This document shows positions 20,083 to 29,632 of a stretch of DNA of 32,901 bases, piece by piece. Location: positions 1 through 32,901 of IMG/VR virus record IMGVR_UViG_3300048550_000213. One strand, written 5' to 3'. Each line of letters starts with the position of its first letter. Position 1 is the stretch's first letter. Below the pieces are notes generated by a model. That model was not told the DNA's origin and searched no databases. It saw nothing but the letters and a program-made list of their open reading frames with translations. A program made the translations under genes and the position numbers. This DNA is from a virus.

Positions 20083-21869
20083 CGGTTTTTGTTCTTACGC
20101 CGACGATTGCGTCTCTTGTTCTTCTTATTGTTCCGTTTCTTAGTACGAGTTCCTCCAGAACCCTTGCGGCCACCGCGATTCTTTCTCCGTGCCTTTCTAT
20201 CCTTACGACGGATCGCTCTCCGTCCCGCCGTAGACCTCTTCTTGTTACGCCGCTTTCTTCTTTCGAGATTGCTGACATTCTTACCACGTTTTTTAGATCT
20301 CCGCCGTCTCTTCTTCCTGCTACCCAGTCCACGTCCAACGGCAGGTCTTGCACCACGGCGTCTAAGTCCTCTACGCTTCTTACGAACACGTCCCTTACGT
20401 TTCCGTCTACCACTAGAATTACCAGCAATAGTTGCGGTACTCTCATTATTTTTAGAACTTGCACCACCAGAATCAGGTGTAGAATCTCTAGTCAATAGAA
20501 GAATCGTTATCATTCTTCCATCATGATACTTATGCTCAGCACTAGCAATGATCCAAAGACCACTCCAACGTTGATCTGTGGGAATATTTGTACTGTTTGG
20601 TTTGTCTGGTAGTGCCTTCGGGATCGTGATATGAATACCATGACCTGCCATCAAATCTAAGTTACCTGGTACAGTAACTTGAAGTTGTTGATATAAAAGA
20701 CTCTTCAGTCTTAGGAAATTGTATGATCCTGCTTCAACAATAGACTTCACACTCTGTCCACCAATTGGAGCAGACTGTTTAGATTCTTTCTTCTCCATGT
20801 TGCCATAACCACGAGTCATGACTGGTTTCAGTCTTACTCGTCTAGGAGTATCAACCATCGATGGTTCACCCTGAGGTGCCAACTTACTCATATCAAATGG
20901 TGGTTTTCCTTTTGGATTGACATGTGACATGTCTTTCCAGTTTCTTCTAATAGCATACTCATCCAATGCTAATGGTAGATCGCCTGATTGATCTCCACTA
21001 GAACTCTTAGCAAGATCAACAGGATCAAATCCTTGTGTATATCCTGCCCATGTACCATGCCTGAGATTTTCTAGCAGGTTATAAGACTTAGGAAATGAAA
21101 TCGTTTGGATAATAAAGTCTTTAGTTTCTTCTGCCATACTTGGCAGGTTTGCTTGACCATATCCATAGTAATACAGTTGTGGTAGTGGTCTCTTACCAGC
21201 ACCTTTCGATTCGCCTTTCGGTTTCTGCTTATTTGCATCTTCAATCATCGCATCGATTGTGATGTAATGATATCCAGATGTATTCTCGTAGAAAATATAT
21301 CCACTCTGACGTAGTTTACCTGTCTGTTTCTTGCGAAGAGACTTCTCTGCTAGGTAATTGATAGCATTGAATGGTCTCCAGTTTGGACAAACATAAGAAA
21401 ACTTCTCATCAGTTGGTTCTGAATACAACTCTTTGTCGGTGTTGATATAGTCTGAACCTAGATACTCACCAACATAATCATCAGTCTTTTTACCTTGGAA
21501 TGAACCAAATACATTGACAAGTTCATTCCTCAGAAACTCTTCTGAACAGAGGTGTAAATTATATACGTTACGTTTTTCAAATCTAACACGATCAGTGATC
21601 TTATAAAGTTGAAGATTATACTCAACTTTCTTTCCACTAACATCGTTTTCTAATGTAAGGAAGAATGTTTCACCACCTGCTAATCTACTGATGACATCAC
21701 CAGAGTCATCAAATGCTATAATTGCTCTGATAGAAGGGGAATCAATCCCCTCCATGATTCTAACTTCGTTTACATACTCATCAAACTTATTAGTTTTGTT
21801 ATCTGGTCCTGCAACGCCTTCAATCTCAAGACTAAAACCCGTTGTGCCCTGTCCTCCTTTTACGTCCAT
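20079..21869 (-). CDS. 27: Baseplate hub protein, gp27-like, with 109-residue polybasic tail
   Basis: This is a 596-residue protein. The first 475 residues look like a hub protein of the gp27 / phage tail-protein D type. They include strand-rich FSLEIEGVAG, VRIMEGIDSP, GGETFFLTLEND and YNLQLYKITD, then the second-domain strand VYNLHLCSEEFLRNELV and the later WRPFNAINYLAEKS, typical of hub proteins where the chain enters the second tube domain. The last 109 residues (about 488-596) have about 63 Arg or Lys and only two acidic residues. T4 gp27 has no such tail. The gene starts one base inside the end of the 1204-residue gene (TGATG). In T4, gp27 binds gp5; here a cp12-cpeT cassette lies between them. 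The gp27 assignment rests on position and strand pattern, not on close sequence identity. Confidence 0.78.
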   Translation of the reverse strand: MDVKGGQGTTGFSLEIEGVAGPDNKTNKFDEYVNEVRIMEGIDSPSIRAIIAFDDSGDVISRLAGGETFFLTLENDVSGKKVEYNLQLYKITDRVRFEKRNVYNLHLCSEEFLRNELVNVFGSFQGKKTDDYVGEYLGSDYINTDKELYSEPTDEKFSYVCPNWRPFNAINYLAEKSLRKKQTGKLRQSGYIFYENTSGYHYITIDAMIEDANKQKPKGESKGAGKRPLPQLYYYGYGQANLPSMAEETKDFIIQTISFPKSYNLLENLRHGTWAGYTQGFDPVDLAKSSSGDQSGDLPLALDEYAIRRNWKDMSHVNPKGKPPFDMSKLAPQGEPSMVDTPRRVRLKPVMTRGYGNMEKKESKQSAPIGGQSVKSIVEAGSYNFLRLKSLLYQQLQVTVPGNLDLMAGHGIHITIPKALPDKPNSTNIPTDQRWSGLWIIASAEHKYHDGRMITILLLTRDSTPDSGGASSKNNESTATIAGNSSGRRKRKGRVRKKRRGLRRRGARPAVGRGLGSRKKRRRRSKKRGKNVSNLERRKRRNKKRSTAGRRAIRRKDRKARRKNRGGRKGSGGTRTKKRNNKKNKRRNRRRKNKNR

Positions 21870-24800
21870 CAGAAACCTCCAGCAAACAGACCAAATCCAG
21901 GACGATAATTGTATATATCATCACTAGATAACCGACCACCGTCGCCACCTTTCGGGATAGGAACTTTGACTGGTTTATCTGGTATTGGTTTAGACATTGC
22001 TTGTACTTGTTTTTGTGCTGCTTGATTCTGCTGTGATGTTTGTGCAATTGCGGCAGCTGCTCCTGTTTTCTGTTTTGTTTTTACCGCACTCTTTGCTGTA
22101 GCAACATTATTAGTTTGAAGTTGTACTTGCCGTGGTTGTACAGTAGGAGGTTTGATATTTGCAGGTACTACCTCCCCTTTCGGTTCAGGACTGCCACCTT
22201 TTACCAAACGTTCCAGAGAACGTTCCTTCTGCTTGTACGCTCTATATTGATTTTCTAAATTTGCTGCACTGACTAGACCACCAGTACGAGGATCTTTGAA
22301 CATCCCGAGTGATTTTGGTCCTACTGGTGAGCTCATCGCTGCCCTAATGTAATCTCTTTGATGCTTGAGTTGCATCATCTGTTGTTGGAATTGTTTTTTG
22401 AATGCTGGACTCTGCTGAGTACCACCAGCAGAGAGACTTTTGACTAACTTGATAGGTCCACCGTGTGATGCAAAAGAAATACCAGCACGCTTACTAGTTC
22501 CAGTTTCCATCACACCTGCTTCATCATTACGACGCCAGTTATTGATACCACCGTTATGACTTGCTAATCTAGTACGATATGCATCAATAACTGGGGCATA
22601 ATTACCACTGCTCAGTGACTGTTTCACAGTATCTTTTATACCAGCACCAGACAAAGATCCATAGTTGAAGACTACAGACTCTAGTCCTGCCTTTACTCTA
22701 TTCGGTGCCTTATTATAGTCACTGCCAACCTCATCGGTGAGACGCTTGCGGTGCTCAATAATATGCTTAGACTTGATCCAATATGCTTCATCGTCAGTAA
22801 TCGTGTCACCCTTCTGAACCTTACCAGACTTACGGAATCCCTCTGGATAGTAAGTTGCACCAATACCAATCGTAGGAATCTCCCACCCATAATTAGCATC
22901 AGCATATGCCTTTAGTCTTAGACCTTCATAATTACCTAGCAGTGCTGCAAACTTCTTATCAAATCCACCACTGACTGATGTTGAACCACCTGCTAGTTCT
23001 CCCGTTGCAGAGTCTCTGGTTCCAGCTTCAGTACCAGGACCTGCAGTAGATCCATCTTCTGTACCCCCGAATGTAGCTGCACTGAGTTTTCCACCTGTAT
23101 ACTTTTTATTACCATCAACTGCATGAGCACCCTTTAGTAAGAGGTTACCCAGGTTAGCAAGCAATGACTCGACAGACTCTTTTGGTTTTACATCAGCACC
23201 AGTAGAGTTTGTGCCACCATCCTGTGATGTTTCGCTTGTAGTTTGTACATCACTATTGATTGATCCACCAGGAGCAACACCACCTTTACCAGGTACAACA
23301 ATCCTACCAGTCCCAGGACCACGGTCAACCCAGATGCCATCCATCAATGACTTAGGATATACAACACCCTTACCTTTAGTATCTGATGCACTAGTGAGAT
23401 TACTTTGTGCCCATCCACCCTTGGGAGTTGGGTTCAGTTTTCCATAGGGATCGTTTACAACGATGTCATTACCTCGGTAACCAATACCAGCAACCATGTG
23501 ACCACTGCCACTGTTATGTTGCAGACCTAGGACAACAGGTTTACCTGCATTGATTGCTGATTTATATGCCTTATATGATCCAAAATCACCACCAGATGCA
23601 GGAACACCAAACTTTTTCATTGCTGGTGGGTGTGCTCCCATACTAGTGGACTTACCATGCTGCGAACGAACCTTATTATATTCGTCAGGCATGACATTCT
23701 TTCCTAAGATTGCCGAGACAACCATTGCAGCAGAAGTGGAGAAACATTGTGAGTCTCCACCAGTACCTAGAGCATCAGTTTTGTTTGATCTCTGGTTGAA
23801 ATATGGTACGCTTAGGATTTTACCACCGCCAGCAGGAGGTGCTTTTTCTTCAGTATTCTTCGATTGACCTTCTGCAATCTTTTCTGCTGGAATCTCTGCA
23901 CCCCCAGATGCCTTCAGTGTTCTACCTAAAGGACCACCATTAGAAAAGAAACCTGCATGTTGTGCTTCAGAATTACGACGTGCTGTTAGACCTTTATTAC
24001 CTCTAGTAGCAGGAGTGTCATAAGGAACAACGAATGCAGACCCACCTGGTTTTGAGTACACCATTTCGGTGCCATGACCGATGAATGATGTTGACTGTCC
24101 ACCATCTAGTGATACAGGATACCCTGTCTGTGGTCCTTGAATGATACCACCGTTAGCAAACCCACGAAGAGATCCACCTGTTGCCATCTTAGGCATAGCA
24201 GTAGCTTGCTCTCCCTGATCAAAGAAAGATCTACCACCAAGAATATTTCCAAACCCTGCCTGAGCAGAATTGAAAGCACTAATAGCACCTTCTTTCAGAT
24301 TTGTTGCTGCTTGCCTAGGATCTTTTATAGCCTCTTGAACGCCGCGGCCAATATTACCTACCTGTTGACCTGCATATTCTTGTAGATTTTTAGGTGGTTC
24401 TGGAGCAGGTTGAGGACTTCCTGCATTCTGTCCTGTTGGTGCAGTTGGTTCTTGTGTAGTGCCAACACTTTCTGCTGGTCCACCCGCTCGCGTATCTCCT
24501 GCTGCAGCAGTTGTGGCAAGTCCAAACGCTGATGTTAGTTGATCTAATTTTGATTGTATCTCAGGACTAAGACCTGCAATCTCACTTTCCTGCTCATCTT
24601 CCTGATCAGTTAGATCTTCTTCTGCCTGTTGCAGATCCTTACCAGTGACACCATCATTATTCATGGCATCTAATGCCATACCAGTGCCAACGATAGCACC
24701 ACTGAATAGCAATGCCTTACCAGCTTTACTACCAAATAGTTTACCTAATCCTCTTCTCAGTCCTTTAGAAGTAGCAAGTTTTAGTAACTTCTTACTAAAC

Positions 24801-25483
24801 CACACCAAAGATTTGAAGAAACCTTTGAATACTTTGAAGACCATCTTGACGACGAACTTGATCGCCTTGCCGCCAAATAGTTTCTTGAATGCTAAGAATC
24901 CTGTTCCTAATGCAATCAAGAACAATCCACCCTTCAGGATCTCCTTCCAGAAAGGCATCTCAGTAAACTTAGCAATCAAATCTAGGGTAGTCATTACGAT
25001 ACCCGTAGTCACATTGAATAGGAACTTACCTACACCAATGATACCTGCAATAATTTTTTGTAACTTCTCACGATTCTCTTCCTTGCTCATCCACTTCATC
25101 AGTGGAACTAGAACAAATAATTTGAACAACCCACCGAGTAGATCTAGGATACTACCAGCACCCTTTGCTACTAGTGCTGCAATACCACCGAGAACCATAC
25201 CACCGAATGGATCTCTTTTCTTTTTCTGTACTCCAGGTTTATCTCTTCTCTGATTATCCTTTTCAATTTTCTGCTGTCGTATAAAGTTCTGTGCAGATAT
25301 ATTTTTGAACTTTTCAAACTCAGAAGCAATAGCATTGACAGAAGTGCCTAAGTTATTGAGACCTTCAACAACTTTATCATTACCTACCGAAACTATTCCA
25401 GGTTGACTTTCAACCCTTCCTACAAATTTGTAGAAATTGATCTTTTGCTTACGCTTTTCCTTATTGACTTTTTGATCTGCCAT
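21869..25483 (-). CDS. Large tape-measure/hub protein with cysteine peptidase and GH24 lysozyme domains
   Basis: This is a 1204-residue protein starting at the ATG at 25483 (TGATG overlap with the upstream gene; the frame opens at a TTG one codon earlier, which I discount). Residues about 90-270 are hydrophobic helices including LMKWMSKEENREKLQK, which matches the neighbour protein. Residues about 560-700 form a C39/papain-like peptidase: C580 in DSQCFSTSAAM, H662 in GHMVAGIGY, D678 in NDPYG. Residues about 845-1000 are a GH24 (T4-type) lysozyme: E853 in YEGLRLKAYAD, D862, and T871 in PTIGIG. Between these are Gly-rich linkers such as ATGGSLRGFANGG. It probably sits in or next to the tail tube and cuts the host wall after contraction. 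T4 has GH24 on gp5; here it is on this protein. Confidence 0.85.
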   Translation of the reverse strand: MADQKVNKEKRKQKINFYKFVGRVESQPGIVSVGNDKVVEGLNNLGTSVNAIASEFEKFKNISAQNFIRQQKIEKDNQRRDKPGVQKKKRDPFGGMVLGGIAALVAKGAGSILDLLGGLFKLFVLVPLMKWMSKEENREKLQKIIAGIIGVGKFLFNVTTGIVMTTLDLIAKFTEMPFWKEILKGGLFLIALGTGFLAFKKLFGGKAIKFVVKMVFKVFKGFFKSLVWFSKKLLKLATSKGLRRGLGKLFGSKAGKALLFSGAIVGTGMALDAMNNDGVTGKDLQQAEEDLTDQEDEQESEIAGLSPEIQSKLDQLTSAFGLATTAAAGDTRAGGPAESVGTTQEPTAPTGQNAGSPQPAPEPPKNLQEYAGQQVGNIGRGVQEAIKDPRQAATNLKEGAISAFNSAQAGFGNILGGRSFFDQGEQATAMPKMATGGSLRGFANGGIIQGPQTGYPVSLDGGQSTSFIGHGTEMVYSKPGGSAFVVPYDTPATRGNKGLTARRNSEAQHAGFFSNGGPLGRTLKASGGAEIPAEKIAEGQSKNTEEKAPPAGGGKILSVPYFNQRSNKTDALGTGGDSQCFSTSAAMVVSAILGKNVMPDEYNKVRSQHGKSTSMGAHPPAMKKFGVPASGGDFGSYKAYKSAINAGKPVVLGLQHNSGSGHMVAGIGYRGNDIVVNDPYGKLNPTPKGGWAQSNLTSASDTKGKGVVYPKSLMDGIWVDRGPGTGRIVVPGKGGVAPGGSINSDVQTTSETSQDGGTNSTGADVKPKESVESLLANLGNLLLKGAHAVDGNKKYTGGKLSAATFGGTEDGSTAGPGTEAGTRDSATGELAGGSTSVSGGFDKKFAALLGNYEGLRLKAYADANYGWEIPTIGIGATYYPEGFRKSGKVQKGDTITDDEAYWIKSKHIIEHRKRLTDEVGSDYNKAPNRVKAGLESVVFNYGSLSGAGIKDTVKQSLSSGNYAPVIDAYRTRLASHNGGINNWRRNDEAGVMETGTSKRAGISFASHGGPIKLVKSLSAGGTQQSPAFKKQFQQQMMQLKHQRDYIRAAMSSPVGPKSLGMFKDPRTGGLVSAANLENQYRAYKQKERSLERLVKGGSPEPKGEVVPANIKPPTVQPRQVQLQTNNVATAKSAVKTKQKTGAAAAIAQTSQQNQAAQKQVQAMSKPIPDKPVKVPIPKGGDGGRLSSDDIYNYRPGFGLFAGGF

Positions 25484-28400
25484 CAATAATTCTCAAACCT
25501 GATTGAGTGATCGGCCTTTCCAGTAACTGTAGCAATTACTCTGGTGCCCCGTGTTCTATTTATTGGCATTGGAATGACCTTTGGTATTGGAATGACTACC
25601 AAATCTTCCTCTTCCTTCTCATGAATAGCAGCAACAGACTGAGATGCTTTAGCAATACTATTTACTCTACCACCACCAGACATTTTTGCTAAGAAACTCT
25701 TAGCATATTTTATTCTAGGTCCATCATGTGCTACACCTGCACGTTCCCAGGTTTTACGGAAATCTACTGTAGCATTTGCAACGTCAGTCTTTTTCTTGAA
25801 CTCTCCCCAAGATCCAGATGTGCCAGTACCTTTCTTGATAAATCCACCGTTACCTGCCATCAACTCAGACATCAGGAACTTGTAGTTGTCTGCATTACTT
25901 GGGATCTTATTATAGTCACCACCATAAGAAGCGATGAACTTATCATATCTATCACCAGGTGCAGAGTTAGTCCACTGTGCCCATCCATATCCCTTTCTAA
26001 CTGTACCTTGAGGCCATGGTTTACTGTTCTTACCAAAAGGTCCACCTTCTCTGATACCAGGTATAAATCCAGCAGATTCATGTGCCATGTTACCAGAGAT
26101 CGCAGCTGCTGCTTGTTTAGTAGCACCAGTGTCACTCATAATCTTTTTAGAAATGTCAACACCTTTTGCAGTGACACTACCATTGACTGCTAATGTTCCA
26201 GGATCACCTGTATATCCACCTCCACTACTAATACTATTACCTGAATCACTGTCAGTGGTAGAAGCGGCTGATTTATCTGGTGGTGTAGGAGGTGTTAGAG
26301 CATTAGGGAACAATGATTTCATTACTCCCAGTAATATAGTTGCAGCACCACCAGTAGGATCTGCTGCTTTCAATACCTTCATACCAATTTCAGTTGGAGG
26401 TGGAGGACTTGCTTTTTTATCTAAGTCCTTCTGCTTCTCAACTGTCTCGGATGTTCTTTTATGAACAGGTTGCTGCTTTAGGAGTGCTGCTTCAGATGCA
26501 GCAACAACTCGTTTTTCAACTTCTGCATGGGAAAGACCTTCTGCCCTTGCTTCTGTCCTTGCTTTCTGTGCTGCTTGCCATACTACCAAGTTAGAAGAAC
26601 CAGTCTTGGTAGGATCAAGTACAGATCCACCCATAGACATCTTCACATTACGAACTAAACCACCTGCAGATCTCTCTGGTACATCATCCTCTGGAGTTGC
26701 AGCATTTAGTTTTTTCTCATCCACATTGAATGCATCCATAAATGATACATCTTGTTTGGGAATGCCAATAACATCAGCAAGTTTATCTGCTAACCATTCT
26801 CCACCCCATTGTGTAGCACCAGTGACAACACCAGCAAGGATAGCAGCACCAATACCACCAGTACCAGCACCAATAGCACCCAAGATAGCAGTACCAGCAA
26901 CCAAACCTGCAATAGAACCAGCAAGTTTTAGTGCAACACGACGAGGATCTTGACCCGCCTTCAATTCCATTGCAGCAAACAATGTCTCGACAATAATGTC
27001 TAGAGGACCAATTTTGAATGGCGCTGCATCAAGAGCGTTCTTTGTACCTTGGACTGCAGGTTTTGCTATATTTACAAACTTCTTGAAGAGACCTTCTCCA
27101 CCTTCTTTTCCTGCCTTACCTTTGAATTTATCAATAAAGAACTTGGTAACAGGGTTCCCTTCAATTAGATCTTTTGCAGTAGCCTTCAGTGGTGCTAGAA
27201 ATTTATCAACAACAAACTCTTTTCCTTTTGCAGCAAGGTTTGTAATATTATCACTTAGTTTATTCCAGTTAGTAGAAACTGTTTGTGGGAATTCTTGTAT
27301 TCCCTTCAGGAAACTCTCTAGACCCTCCTTATAACTTTTGTATTTGTCAATGGCGAATTCACTAGTGATGTCCCATGCACCCTTAGCAACATCAATTCCC
27401 TGCCCAACTTTCTGACCGAACTTGGTATTAGAAAACCACTTTAGGAGATCACTACCACCTTGGGCAACAGGATCAATAAATCTTTTCCTTGCCGCGTCTC
27501 TAGTTTCTGATAATGCTTGCCTAGGATCTGCTCTAAATCCTTCTACTATATCAAATGCCTTTTTACCAGCATTTTGTAGTGGTTTTGTGAGTTCATCAGC
27601 ACGGGTGAGTAATCCTTCACCACCCTTTTTGATGACATCTAATCCATCTGTCAATCGTTTTAGTACACTAGGCGGCAAACTGTTCTTGAATGCCTCAACT
27701 GCAGCTGCAACTGCCTTTGCAATCTTAGGTTTGACTACATTTTTGAAAAAGTTTGCACCCCATCTAGCAATCTTTGCTGCAAGATCACTAATGAATGTGC
27801 CAACAATACTGAATACAAGTAAAACTTTCTTCAACCAACGTCCTTTCAGACGTTTGAACATGATCCTAACTCTTTGTCTTAGTTTTCCTAACCAAGTCTT
27901 ATTTTTTAGTTTGTTGCCAGGTTTGTTTGGTCCATCTGCATCAGGTTTACTACGATCTAAACCACCACCATCATCTGATGACATCATTCCTAGAAGATCT
28001 AGGATACCACCCATCAAACTGAATGGGTTCAGGAACATCGCTAAACCCTTGAGAGCAAGGAATCCTACCAGAAGTTGACCGAATCCCATTATGGATTCCC
28101 AGACCCCTCCCAGGTCCCCCTTCATGATCTTACTAATACCACCGAACAGTCCTGCTAGACCGTCCATAAGATTAGTTACACCAAATGTACCCCATTTCCA
28201 TAGGAAATCAAAGATTACTTTGGTAAACTCTACAAGTTTCTTTACTTTTTCTTGATTTTTTTCATCTGAAAACCATTTCATGATGCCAATAATGGCAGCA
28301 AACTTGATGAATGGTGATATCAGATTCCAGATAGGTGTCAGCAATTGCTGCAAAAAACTACCTTTCTTCTTTAGTTTCTTATCCTTCTTCCCTACTTCCT

Positions 28401-28728
28401 TACCAACTTTCTTTTCATCTATAGGTTTGACTGCAGCACCACGCTCTTGACTTGCTTCTTTTTGGTCAAGTTGTCTGTCTCTATCTGCTCTACGTTCTTC
28501 AACCTCTTTACTTCTTAGAGATATTGCACGAACTTCCTCAATAGATGTCAGTCCTCGGATTGAATTGTAAATACTATCCGTTGCTGCACCAAGTCTATTG
28601 ATGCCAAGAACAATCTTACCGCTAGGCAGTTTTTTGGCGTTCGGCGTTTTCACGCCACTAGACTTCAAGGTCTCCTTATCCTTGGAAGTAAGACTTGGGT
28701 TTACAAATTTGTAACCTAGCTTTGCCAT
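25483..28728 (-). CDS. Large tape-measure-like hub protein with tail lysozyme domain
   Basis: This is a 1081-residue protein in the place of T4 gp29 (tape measure). Residues 1-130 are charged, with KKVGKEVGKKDKKLKKK. Residues about 135-260 are hydrophobic helices containing GIMKWFSDEKNQEKVKK, clearly related to the block in the next gene. Long amphipathic helices follow (about 330-600), then a small-residue hydrophobic segment near 625-660 (VAGTAILGAIGAGTGGIGAA). Residues about 860-1020 match the phage tail lysozyme (Phage_lysozyme2) type: AAAAISGNMAHESAGF with E884 as the likely acid, then GYGWAQWT. The start overlaps the stop of the frameshift frame by one base, as is usual for a chaperone followed by a tape measure. 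Which of the two paralogues sets tail length is unclear. Confidence 0.85.
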   Translation of the reverse strand: MAKLGYKFVNPSLTSKDKETLKSSGVKTPNAKKLPSGKIVLGINRLGAATDSIYNSIRGLTSIEEVRAISLRSKEVEERRADRDRQLDQKEASQERGAAVKPIDEKKVGKEVGKKDKKLKKKGSFLQQLLTPIWNLISPFIKFAAIIGIMKWFSDEKNQEKVKKLVEFTKVIFDFLWKWGTFGVTNLMDGLAGLFGGISKIMKGDLGGVWESIMGFGQLLVGFLALKGLAMFLNPFSLMGGILDLLGMMSSDDGGGLDRSKPDADGPNKPGNKLKNKTWLGKLRQRVRIMFKRLKGRWLKKVLLVFSIVGTFISDLAAKIARWGANFFKNVVKPKIAKAVAAAVEAFKNSLPPSVLKRLTDGLDVIKKGGEGLLTRADELTKPLQNAGKKAFDIVEGFRADPRQALSETRDAARKRFIDPVAQGGSDLLKWFSNTKFGQKVGQGIDVAKGAWDITSEFAIDKYKSYKEGLESFLKGIQEFPQTVSTNWNKLSDNITNLAAKGKEFVVDKFLAPLKATAKDLIEGNPVTKFFIDKFKGKAGKEGGEGLFKKFVNIAKPAVQGTKNALDAAPFKIGPLDIIVETLFAAMELKAGQDPRRVALKLAGSIAGLVAGTAILGAIGAGTGGIGAAILAGVVTGATQWGGEWLADKLADVIGIPKQDVSFMDAFNVDEKKLNAATPEDDVPERSAGGLVRNVKMSMGGSVLDPTKTGSSNLVVWQAAQKARTEARAEGLSHAEVEKRVVAASEAALLKQQPVHKRTSETVEKQKDLDKKASPPPPTEIGMKVLKAADPTGGAATILLGVMKSLFPNALTPPTPPDKSAASTTDSDSGNSISSGGGYTGDPGTLAVNGSVTAKGVDISKKIMSDTGATKQAAAAISGNMAHESAGFIPGIREGGPFGKNSKPWPQGTVRKGYGWAQWTNSAPGDRYDKFIASYGGDYNKIPSNADNYKFLMSELMAGNGGFIKKGTGTSGSWGEFKKKTDVANATVDFRKTWERAGVAHDGPRIKYAKSFLAKMSGGGRVNSIAKASQSVAAIHEKEEEDLVVIPIPKVIPMPINRTRGTRVIATVTGKADHSIRFENY

Positions 28729-28919
28729 TATCGTCCGCGTGATTGTTCCTTATAACGACGTTCTTCCTCCTTCAAATATTCCATGAGCATCTGGATATAA
28801 ATATCACGTTCCCAAGGAATCATATTTTCTATACAGTCAAGAGACCATTTATGATATTGTACTAGCGCGAAGTTAGTTTCATAATAGTTTTTTAGACTAT
28901 TATGTAACAACGCTACCCG
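28728..28919 (-). CDS. -1 frame extension of the tail chaperone (GT-type), likely made by frameshifting
   Basis: This 63-codon stretch lies in the -1 frame relative to the gp26/gp51-like gene. It has no ATG, only a TTG at 28910 without a ribosome-binding site. The frame is open backwards through the slippery site. The peptide (residues like HKWSLDCIENMIPWERDIYIQMLMEYLKEEE) resembles the T part of tail chaperone fusions such as lambda gpGT. The predicted product is 238 residues of the upstream protein plus 63 residues, 301 in all, formed by reading base 28919 twice. It ends one base inside the tape-measure-like gene. It is possible that it is instead started at the TTG as a separate 60-residue protein. 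Confidence 0.78.
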   Translation of the reverse strand, partial: RVALLHNSLKNYYETNFALVQYHKWSLDCIENMIPWERDIYIQMLMEYLKEEERRYKEQSRGR

Positions 28920-28925
28920 AAAAAA
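28880..28925 (-). promoter_or_regulatory. -1 programmed frameshift signal: slippery heptamer and hairpin
   Basis: On the minus strand T TTT TTC (28925-28919) is a perfect slippery heptamer in the correct phase (zero-frame codons TCT TTT TTC). The zero-frame stop TAG comes two codons later (28915-28913). Fourteen bases after the heptamer there is a perfect nine-base inverted repeat (28904-28896 and 28888-28880) with a seven-base loop. The spacer is longer than the usual 5-9 bases, so the stem may be only part of the signal. Confidence 0.78.
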
Positions 28926-29632
28926 GACGCTAGTCCCTCCAGGGTCACCGTAGAAGTCACATTAGTATTGGGGTTGACAACTTCAACGTCATGCATCAGT
29001 TTAGGCATGGTTTCAAAGAACTTTTGTACCTTCTGAAACTGTTCAGAAGTCAGTTGCTCAAGAAACTCAATCTTTTCTTGCTTGGTAGAATCAGAACCAG
29101 GATAGACTTGATTCTCATCATAAATGTTATCAATACAATCAGATGCAAGGTCAAAGACTTGAGTGATCTCGTCTCGCTCATCATCACCAGTAATATTCAT
29201 CTTGACAAAGGTGTCCAAGGAAGGATACCTCATAACCATACCCATAGTATCAGATAGTTTGATAGTCTTATCGTGCTCATCATCTTCTGAGATTTCAATT
29301 GCAGCAAGATTGATCTCAACTTGCACTTCAGTTTCACCATCGTCGGGTGCAGTCAGAAGAACCTTAGATGATTCACCAACAGACTTAGAACGAATCTTCA
29401 AGAAGATGTATTCAATGTCAAACGTTGGCAAAGAATCAATAGGAACTGTAATATTAGTACAGTCTTTGATGATCTGTTTGATAGTTTCAATCGTACTATT
29501 TTCATCTGATGTTTCCATCGCCATCAGTAAGAGTTTCTCTTCTTTCACAAGAAATGGTCTAAACTTTATGTTTTTACCAGTCGAAGGAAGTTTCAAAGTA
29601 TACTGTGGAGTAGCAATCTTTGGTAATGCCAT
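28913..29632 (-). CDS. 26: Baseplate/tail assembly chaperone, gp26/gp51-like
   Basis: This is a 239-residue protein. The N-terminal part (TLKLPSTGKNIKFRPFLVKEEKLLLMAMET) is the signature of the T4 gp26/gp51 baseplate family, followed by IIKDC, FDIEYIFLKIRSKSVGE and an acidic beta-helix region. In T4 these proteins help assemble the hub. Here the gene sits just before the tape-measure-like genes, and its last codons carry a -1 frameshift signal, so it behaves as a tail-assembly chaperone of the lambda G/GT kind. The late promoter at 29661-29655 lies 23 bases upstream. There is no strong ribosome-binding site. Cyanophage versions are usually named gp26; gp51 would be equally possible. Confidence 0.88.
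   Translation of the reverse strand: MALPKIATPQYTLKLPSTGKNIKFRPFLVKEEKLLLMAMETSDENSTIETIKQIIKDCTNITVPIDSLPTFDIEYIFLKIRSKSVGESSKVLLTAPDDGETEVQVEINLAAIEISEDDEHDKTIKLSDTMGMVMRYPSLDTFVKMNITGDDERDEITQVFDLASDCIDNIYDENQVYPGSDSTKQEKIEFLEQLTSEQFQKVQKFFETMPKLMHDVEVVNPNTNVTSTVTLEGLASFFG

Follow-up and report, generated by a model that had tools for sequence, protein, structure and literature searches.

The closest described parallels to the element studied here are phage tail genes in which a -1 frameshift extends a tail assembly chaperone (TAC). The element is a candidate programmed -1 frameshift at the 3' end of a gp26-like chaperone gene, on the minus strand of a viral fragment of 32,901 bases (IMG/VR record IMGVR_UViG_3300048550_000213), the whole of which is called the window below. 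In lambda, the slippery sequence is GGGAAAG. Among T4-like phages, Vladimirov, Gautam & Davidson 2022 (Virology 566:9-15) are said to have found the frameshift conserved in several groups, with T4 reportedly using genes 26 and 51. According to the passages of PMC5009743 that deal with lambda, its chaperone gene lies upstream of the tape-measure gene, and a -1 frameshift near the gene end produces a rare long form at a gpG:gpGT ratio of about 30:1; the tape measure is the partner of G and the tail protein gpV that of T, and G and T both leave the tail. Two papers contain passages citing the study of Vladimirov and colleagues: one mentions poly-T -1 signals in the TAC-N (short-form) genes of T4-like phages (PMC12846349), and the other, on PRFect, mentions T4-like phages with one short TAC gene and one long, fused TAC gene in place of frameshifting (PMC10885494). 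The former paper also describes, in the part concerned, poly-T -1 sites at the end of TAC-N followed by a stop-free -1 frame in the Vandenendeviridae and Andersonviridae, which are other phage families and use the motif GTTTTT (PMC12846349).

The nearest named relatives of the window in this region are Synechococcus phages S-ShM2, S-SSM2 and S-RIM14 (protein 96-97% identical), and because of these relatives, among which S-ShM2 belongs to the Kyanoviridae, we group the window with the T4-like cyanophages. The locus shares a poly-T slippery site and short and long TAC forms with the T4-like TAC-N/TAC-NC pairs, as these are represented in the citing passages, and the finding is therefore already known in kind, as far as those passages go. 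An earlier note on this DNA, made from the sequence alone, knew of no such frameshift described for T4-like cyanophages. The kind has been reported for T4-like phages, according to the same passages, and we found no paper naming it in cyanophages, which is weak evidence of absence since subscription literature lay mostly outside the search. The earlier note had also likened the -1 continuation to the T portion of gpGT in lambda. The likeness holds for the organisation, with a chaperone gene upstream of a tape-measure gene (a probable one in the window), a -1 site near its end and a long form expected to be rare, but not for the sequence: neither part has detectable similarity, and comparison of the profiles with the single lambda G and T sequences gave no match (P 0.67 and 0.26).

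Conservation of the slippery heptamer

The gp26-like open reading frame (ORF; 29632-28913) encodes a short chaperone, TAC-N, of 239 amino acids (28913..29632; PF12322, E 6.8e-73; phrog_150, E 8.7e-83) and ends in GCG TCT TTT TTC GGG TAG, where the heptamer T_TTT_TTC (28919..28925) stands in phase with the codons and the zero-frame stop TAG occupies 28913..28915. The earlier note had pointed to this in-phase heptamer just before the stop, to a 63-codon -1 continuation ending one base inside the next gene, to the absence of a good start codon in that frame and to a perfect nine-base inverted repeat 3' of the heptamer, and all four were found where it had placed them. Among the 28 ATG-started ORFs of at least 100 amino acids on both strands of the window, whether real genes or not, only the gp26-like ORF carries an in-phase X3(A/T)3Z sequence within its last 12 codons.

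Two sets of related loci were collected from viral contigs. The first set was found with the gp26-like protein and comprises 54 loci, of which 52 have a readable gene end; L054, with a match of 74 residues, was not entered, and L026 has no stop. In one further member, L041, the contig ends directly past the stop, so the -1 frame is unreadable. The second set was found with the -1 peptide alone and consists of the best 80 loci of a larger result, 78 of them readable, L085 and L129 being at contig ends. Three contigs are common to both sets (L001/L062, L002/L064 and L004/L063). Many loci in both are near-copies, and thinning to less than 80% identity was done regardless of the heptamer.

The heptamer, as TTTTTTC or TTTTTTT, is present in the same phase in all 52 readable relatives of the first set, and, among the best 80 loci of the second, 77 of the 78 readable junctions have it where the zero-frame ORF upstream comes to its end. 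After thinning, 59 of 60 non-redundant junctions possess it, and the sole miss is L122 (1944-1990), where one base differs from L114 and creates a zero-frame TAG eight codons early, the heptamer and the extension still following. This early stop may be a true variant or an assembly error. Across all 130 junctions, six T's followed by C occur in 108, seven T's in 14, eight T's in 7, and no run in one. The heptamer persists although proteins in the two sets go down to 35% identity with that of the window.

The -1 frame as a probable coding extension

From the heptamer onwards, the -1 frame stays open as far as 28731 and codes for 63 residues beyond Phe-Phe; one base of its TAA (28730-28728) is shared with the next gene's ATG (28728). 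This C-terminal extension, TAC-C (28728..28919; 63 codons and TAA), shows a coding pattern and belongs to phrog_634 (E 1.5e-28). The predicted long product, TAC-NC, has 238 + 63 = 301 amino acids. The tryptic peptide expected across the junction of this long form ends in ...TVTLEGLASFFR, and the C-terminus of the short form is ...TVTLEGLASFFG. A search of the 32.9-kb fragment for a second copy of the extension revealed only the one present here.

Sequence divergence in the relatives follows the -1 codons. Over 51 non-redundant junctions (L057 and L059 were excluded from this count), pairwise differences at -1 codon positions 1, 2 and 3 amount to 27, 15 and 57%, respectively, and past the junction the zero frame is interrupted by a stop in 51/51 segments. 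The concentration of differences at third positions of the -1 frame therefore argues that this frame is under protein-level constraint. An alignment of 46 extensions gives the consensus NFALMQHHKYSLTELENMIPWERDIY.

The only start-like codon within the first 14 codons of the -1 frame in the window is a TTG (28908..28910), 25 nucleotides (nt) 3' of a GGAGG motif, and it is not conserved. Start codons in this interval were counted in 84 junctions, a set that was selected by TTTTTT(C/T), serves for start codons and RNA signals, and gives no evidence of heptamer conservation. In 48 of them there is no ATG, GTG or TTG at all, 23 have an ATG, 13 have only GTG or TTG, and the positions vary. The alignment of this junction across relatives that the earlier note had proposed thus showed that the heptamer, its phase and the open -1 frame are kept, and that the start codon is not.

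RNA signals flanking the heptamer

The bacterial gene dnaX of E. coli provides a model for signals on both sides of such a site. It is similar in having a homopolymeric slippery heptamer, a 5' Shine-Dalgarno-like (SD-like) site, with a spacing of about 10 nt in dnaX, and a 3' stem; it differs in being another gene, in slipping on a run of A instead of U, and in its outcome, as the frameshift proposed here lengthens the product rather than shortening it. In the window, the Shine-Dalgarno-like GGAGG lies at 28936..28940, 10 nt 5' of the heptamer, and is a probable 5' stimulator. On the other side, a predicted 3' stimulatory stem (28863..28915) is suggested by three nested arms and by the folding excess of the group. 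In the predicted fold, the basal stem UAGCGU/GCGCUA (28915-28910/28868-28863) starts 3 nt past the heptamer and encloses a middle stem of 4 bp (28908-28905/28875-28872) and a hairpin formed by the perfect 9-bp inverted repeat CATAATAGT/ACTATTATG (28904-28896/28888-28880), which starts 14 nt past the heptamer. The earlier note had regarded a 14-base spacer as a reason for caution. That distance is correct for the inner hairpin alone, but the enclosing predicted stem is only 3 nt away, which eases the concern. Compared with dinucleotide shuffles, the fold in the window scores z -2.8 and -2.9.

The 5' and 3' signals were tested in the group against nulls that preserve protein and codon usage. Among 53 sequences less than 80% alike, the folding excess peaks right past the heptamer, with a mean z of -1.18, followed by -1.00 at 30 nt further on; it is -0.31 and -0.30 at 60 and 90 nt downstream and from -0.21 to -0.62 in nine upstream intervals, so that the junction differs from the upstream intervals at a paired Wilcoxon p of 0.005. 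The wider set of 84 junctions gives a junction mean z of -1.23 vs -0.47 and -0.50 in two control intervals. Pairing with the anti-Shine-Dalgarno sequence exceeds the codon-preserving expectation at spacings of 5-10 nt, reaching -4.97 vs -4.11 kcal/mol at 5 nt (p 4e-7, uncorrected for the 37 spacings tried). With codons resampled, a GAGG-type motif is expected in 12.2 of the 53 sequences and is observed in 26. At a conserved Glu-Gly site, Glu is encoded by GAG in 25 of 40 cases, compared with 521 of 2078 Glu codons of the same genes (Fisher p 8e-7). Both signals, which are the dnaX-like features of the site, thus exceed the codon-preserving nulls, and hence coding constraint, at group level and not in each member.

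The stems vary by lineage. In 10 hand-picked junctions with z from -5.28 to +0.01, different stems occupy the same place: in L014, L023 and L070 a stem of 9 to 10 bp lies about 5-7 nt past the heptamer, and the 9-bp stem of L038 is a different one. Together with L039, L044 and L048, L038 is also among the relatives with seven or eight T's (21/130); L038 and L039 have no SD-like site, and the 3' stem of L038 is strong (z -4.6). No single shared secondary structure could be claimed from an alignment of 10 relatives and the 10 junction folds, as the stems differ. Junctions without the Glu-Gly SD site have a median z of -2.35 (n=13) vs -0.95 (n=40) for those with it (p 0.08), a difference that is only suggestive of a trade-off in which a stronger 3' stem occurs where the SD site is missing.

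Relation to T4 gp26 and gp51 and to current annotation

In T4, gp26 resembles the short form (profile match E 8.9e-17), and gp51 consists of the PF12322 domain followed by a C-terminal extension. Both proteins belong to PF12322, and gp51 also matches phrog_634 (E 1.2e-23), the family of the extension. Profile alignment with hhalign placed the cyanophage extension on residues 200-243 of T4 gp51 (P 9.3e-5, probability 59%, 30% identity), and the same comparison with T4 gp26, included as a negative control, gave no match, as expected. Since the extension matches the C-terminus of gp51 and not gp26, T4 gene 26 corresponds to the short form and gene 51 to the short form plus extension; unlike in the window, these are two separate genes, and the long form requires no frameshift. 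T4 gene 51 is found at L055:6480-7229, where a gp26-type domain is fused in frame with the extension that cyanophages carry in the -1 frame. A further match of the extension is to the final positions of PHROG family 150 (239-281 of 282; E 8.8e-5), which suggests from profile similarity that this family includes fused forms.

The earlier note had expected the small gene to be annotated separately or missed, and this agrees with public phage records. In 24 such records besides T4 and lambda, the extension, if annotated, is either a separate gp51 or 'baseplate hub assembly catalyst' or a hypothetical protein, and none of the 24 has a joined coding sequence (CDS) flag. The label 'gp51' given to the small ORF in cyanophages is correct for the C-terminus only.

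Proposed mechanism and alternative explanations

The short/long TAC scheme explains the locus, and we consider it very probable, judging from the sequence and its conservation, that a programmed -1 frameshift in the gp26-like tail chaperone yields a long form. Most ribosomes would terminate at TAG 28915-28913 and produce the 239-residue TAC-N, while the remaining minority, whose P and A sites are both filled by tRNA-Phe on T_TTT_TTC, would slip one base back, re-pair on TTT_TTT and read the 63-codon -1 frame to make the 301-residue TAC-NC. As in the dnaX gene of E. coli, the GGAGG 10 nt upstream and the stem 3 nt downstream probably hold the ribosome at the site. If the lambda gpG/gpGT pair is a guide, both forms together would bind the tape measure and be absent from the final virion, and tail-tube subunits would be brought in by the less abundant C-terminal domain. 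The sequence, its phase, the conservation of the heptamer and of the -1 frame, and the coding character of that frame are observed; so are the lack of a conserved start, the homology of the extension to the fused T4 gp51 C-terminus and the group-level excess of RNA signals. From these we infer slippage, its efficiency, the roles of the stimulators and the assembly function. A T4 review, in the section concerned, lists gp26 and gp51 as hub assembly chaperones and gives gp51 as required yet not in the particle (PMC3004832), which fits the proposal of an assembly chaperone.

Since public cyanophage records give the -1 frame its own CDS, the gp51 'baseplate hub assembly catalyst', it might be thought a separate small gene whose translation begins past the TAG by re-initiation or coupling, at TTG 28910 in the window or at an ATG in relatives. 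An ATG indeed occurs within 14 codons in 23 of the 84 junctions, and some relatives have TAATG or TGATG overlaps. Against this, 48 of the 84 junctions have no ATG, GTG or TTG in that interval, start positions vary while the heptamer and its phase stay constant, GGAGG is 25 nt from the TTG yet 10 nt from the heptamer, and T4 gp51 carries this domain as an in-frame fusion, so that we regard a separate gene as very improbable. As the start codon is not conserved, independent -1 initiation was rejected for this clade.

Two other explanations concern the T run itself. RNA polymerase, rather than the ribosome, might slip on the run of six to eight T's and make mRNAs for the long form, as the seven or eight T's of 21/130 junctions would allow. 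This is less probable still: 108 of the 130 junctions have exactly six T's, a short run for polymerase slippage, then C, in fixed codon phase, and the target of the SD-like and 3' RNA signals is the ribosome, not the polymerase. Alternatively, in a gene as rich in T as this one, conservation of a C-terminal Phe-Phe might give rise to the heptamer as a by-product, with a -1 frame that yields nothing. Phe-Phe is invariant across 48 aligned short forms, and TTT is the commoner Phe codon in these genes (701/985). Nevertheless, only 8 of 94 other Phe-Phe sites of the same genes read T TTT TTY, and the -1 frame evolves as coding far past the stop and is conserved in the 46 aligned extensions, which leaves a mere by-product as the least credible of the three.

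Several points weigh against programmed frameshifting as read here. The 301-residue product is predicted, and slippage onto the -1 frame is deduced from the DNA. The Vibrio, Delftia, Stenotrophomonas and Sinorhizobium relatives possess, besides the heptamer, an ATG that overlaps the stop. The 3' structure is not universal: z falls below -2 in 22 of 53 junctions, and several have no stem, such as L022 (z +1.5) and L098 (+1.3), which fold worse than the null. When any 4-nt SD motif is counted, the excess of the 5' signal nearly disappears (47/53 vs 43.7 expected), and the p-values, apart from being uncorrected for the pairing test, are optimistic because the sequences share ancestry. The T4 review, in the same section, reports genetic support for gp26 within the hub, beyond a chaperone role (PMC3004832). 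Finally, all 11 Ackermannviridae-type phages sampled retain the -1 extension ORF without the heptamer.

Relatives lacking the heptamer

Apart from T4 and lambda, 24 annotated phages were sampled. The heptamer occurs in 13 of them and is missing from 11, of which ten are Ackermannviridae by record and one, Vibrio phage D494, is unclassified (L060:4780-4900, L147, L148, L149, L150, L151, L153, L158, L159, L160 and L161). In all 11, the gp26-like gene ends with NTT TTY, one codon and the stop, with no X_XXY_YYZ site there. The -1 codon overlapping the stop is ATG in four (Ag3, 1.255.O, D494 and SD25), ATT in four (Kuttervirus and Taipeivirus members), ATA in two (Nezavisimistyvirus) and ATC in one (3M). 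Since the Ackermannviridae-type phages keep the -1 ORF without the heptamer, another route to the C-terminal domain must exist there, and this domain could be made by stop-start coupling or an unusual slip. For the gp26 family as a whole, we tentatively offer the possibility that the C-terminal domain is obtained by at least three interchangeable strategies, namely a three-part, dnaX-like frameshift cassette in which, from lineage to lineage, 5' SD-like site and 3' stem can replace each other, a separate fused gene of the T4 type, and the heptamer-less -1 ORF of the Ackermannviridae.

Gene neighbourhood and predicted structure

The upstream neighbour of the chaperone gene encodes a tail tube protein (phrog_45, E 3.4e-52). 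The next gene downstream (25483..28728, minus strand), tape-measure-like according to the earlier note, encodes 1081 amino acids and is a probable tape-measure/tail-lysozyme protein by position, phrog_9570 and PF18013; it has a Phage_lysozyme2 domain (PF18013, E 6.5e-19), and the tape-measure match is weak (phrog_9570, E 9.1e-4). Both large genes that follow the chaperone (21869-28728) have cell-wall-lytic domains, PF18013 Phage_lysozyme2 in the 1081-residue protein, and Peptidase_C39_2 and Phage_lysozyme in a protein of 1205 amino acids. The tape-measure function may be split across these two lysozyme-bearing proteins.

An AlphaFold2 model of the short form, built from 48 aligned short forms, has a predicted local distance difference test score (pLDDT) of 86, and that of the extension is helical with moderate confidence (pLDDT 79.6). 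A Foldseek search of the short-form model against the PDB gave no match with E < 0.001. When its candidates were re-aligned over residues 1-87, the best was 2ob9, the tail assembly chaperone of HK97 (Z 7.4, 84 aligned residues, root-mean-square deviation 4.2), followed by 3klu (Z 7.2), which is YqbN, a phage tail chaperone too; Z values below 8 are suggestive and fall short of proof. In comparisons with predicted viral structures, the top-ranking named matches of the short-form model are baseplate hub proteins. Sequence searches for solved relatives of the short form and the extension found none, with best E values of 0.9 and 0.53.

Implications

For annotation, the finding means a correction, as the extension would belong to the long form of the chaperone. 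For cyanophages, it adds a slippery site of deep conservation whose 5' and 3' signals have been quantified, and T4 gp26 and gp51 are thereby connected with the tail-chaperone scheme. The Ackermannviridae represent a natural experiment on ways to make the long form, and their route to the C-terminal domain would, if true, be the new part.

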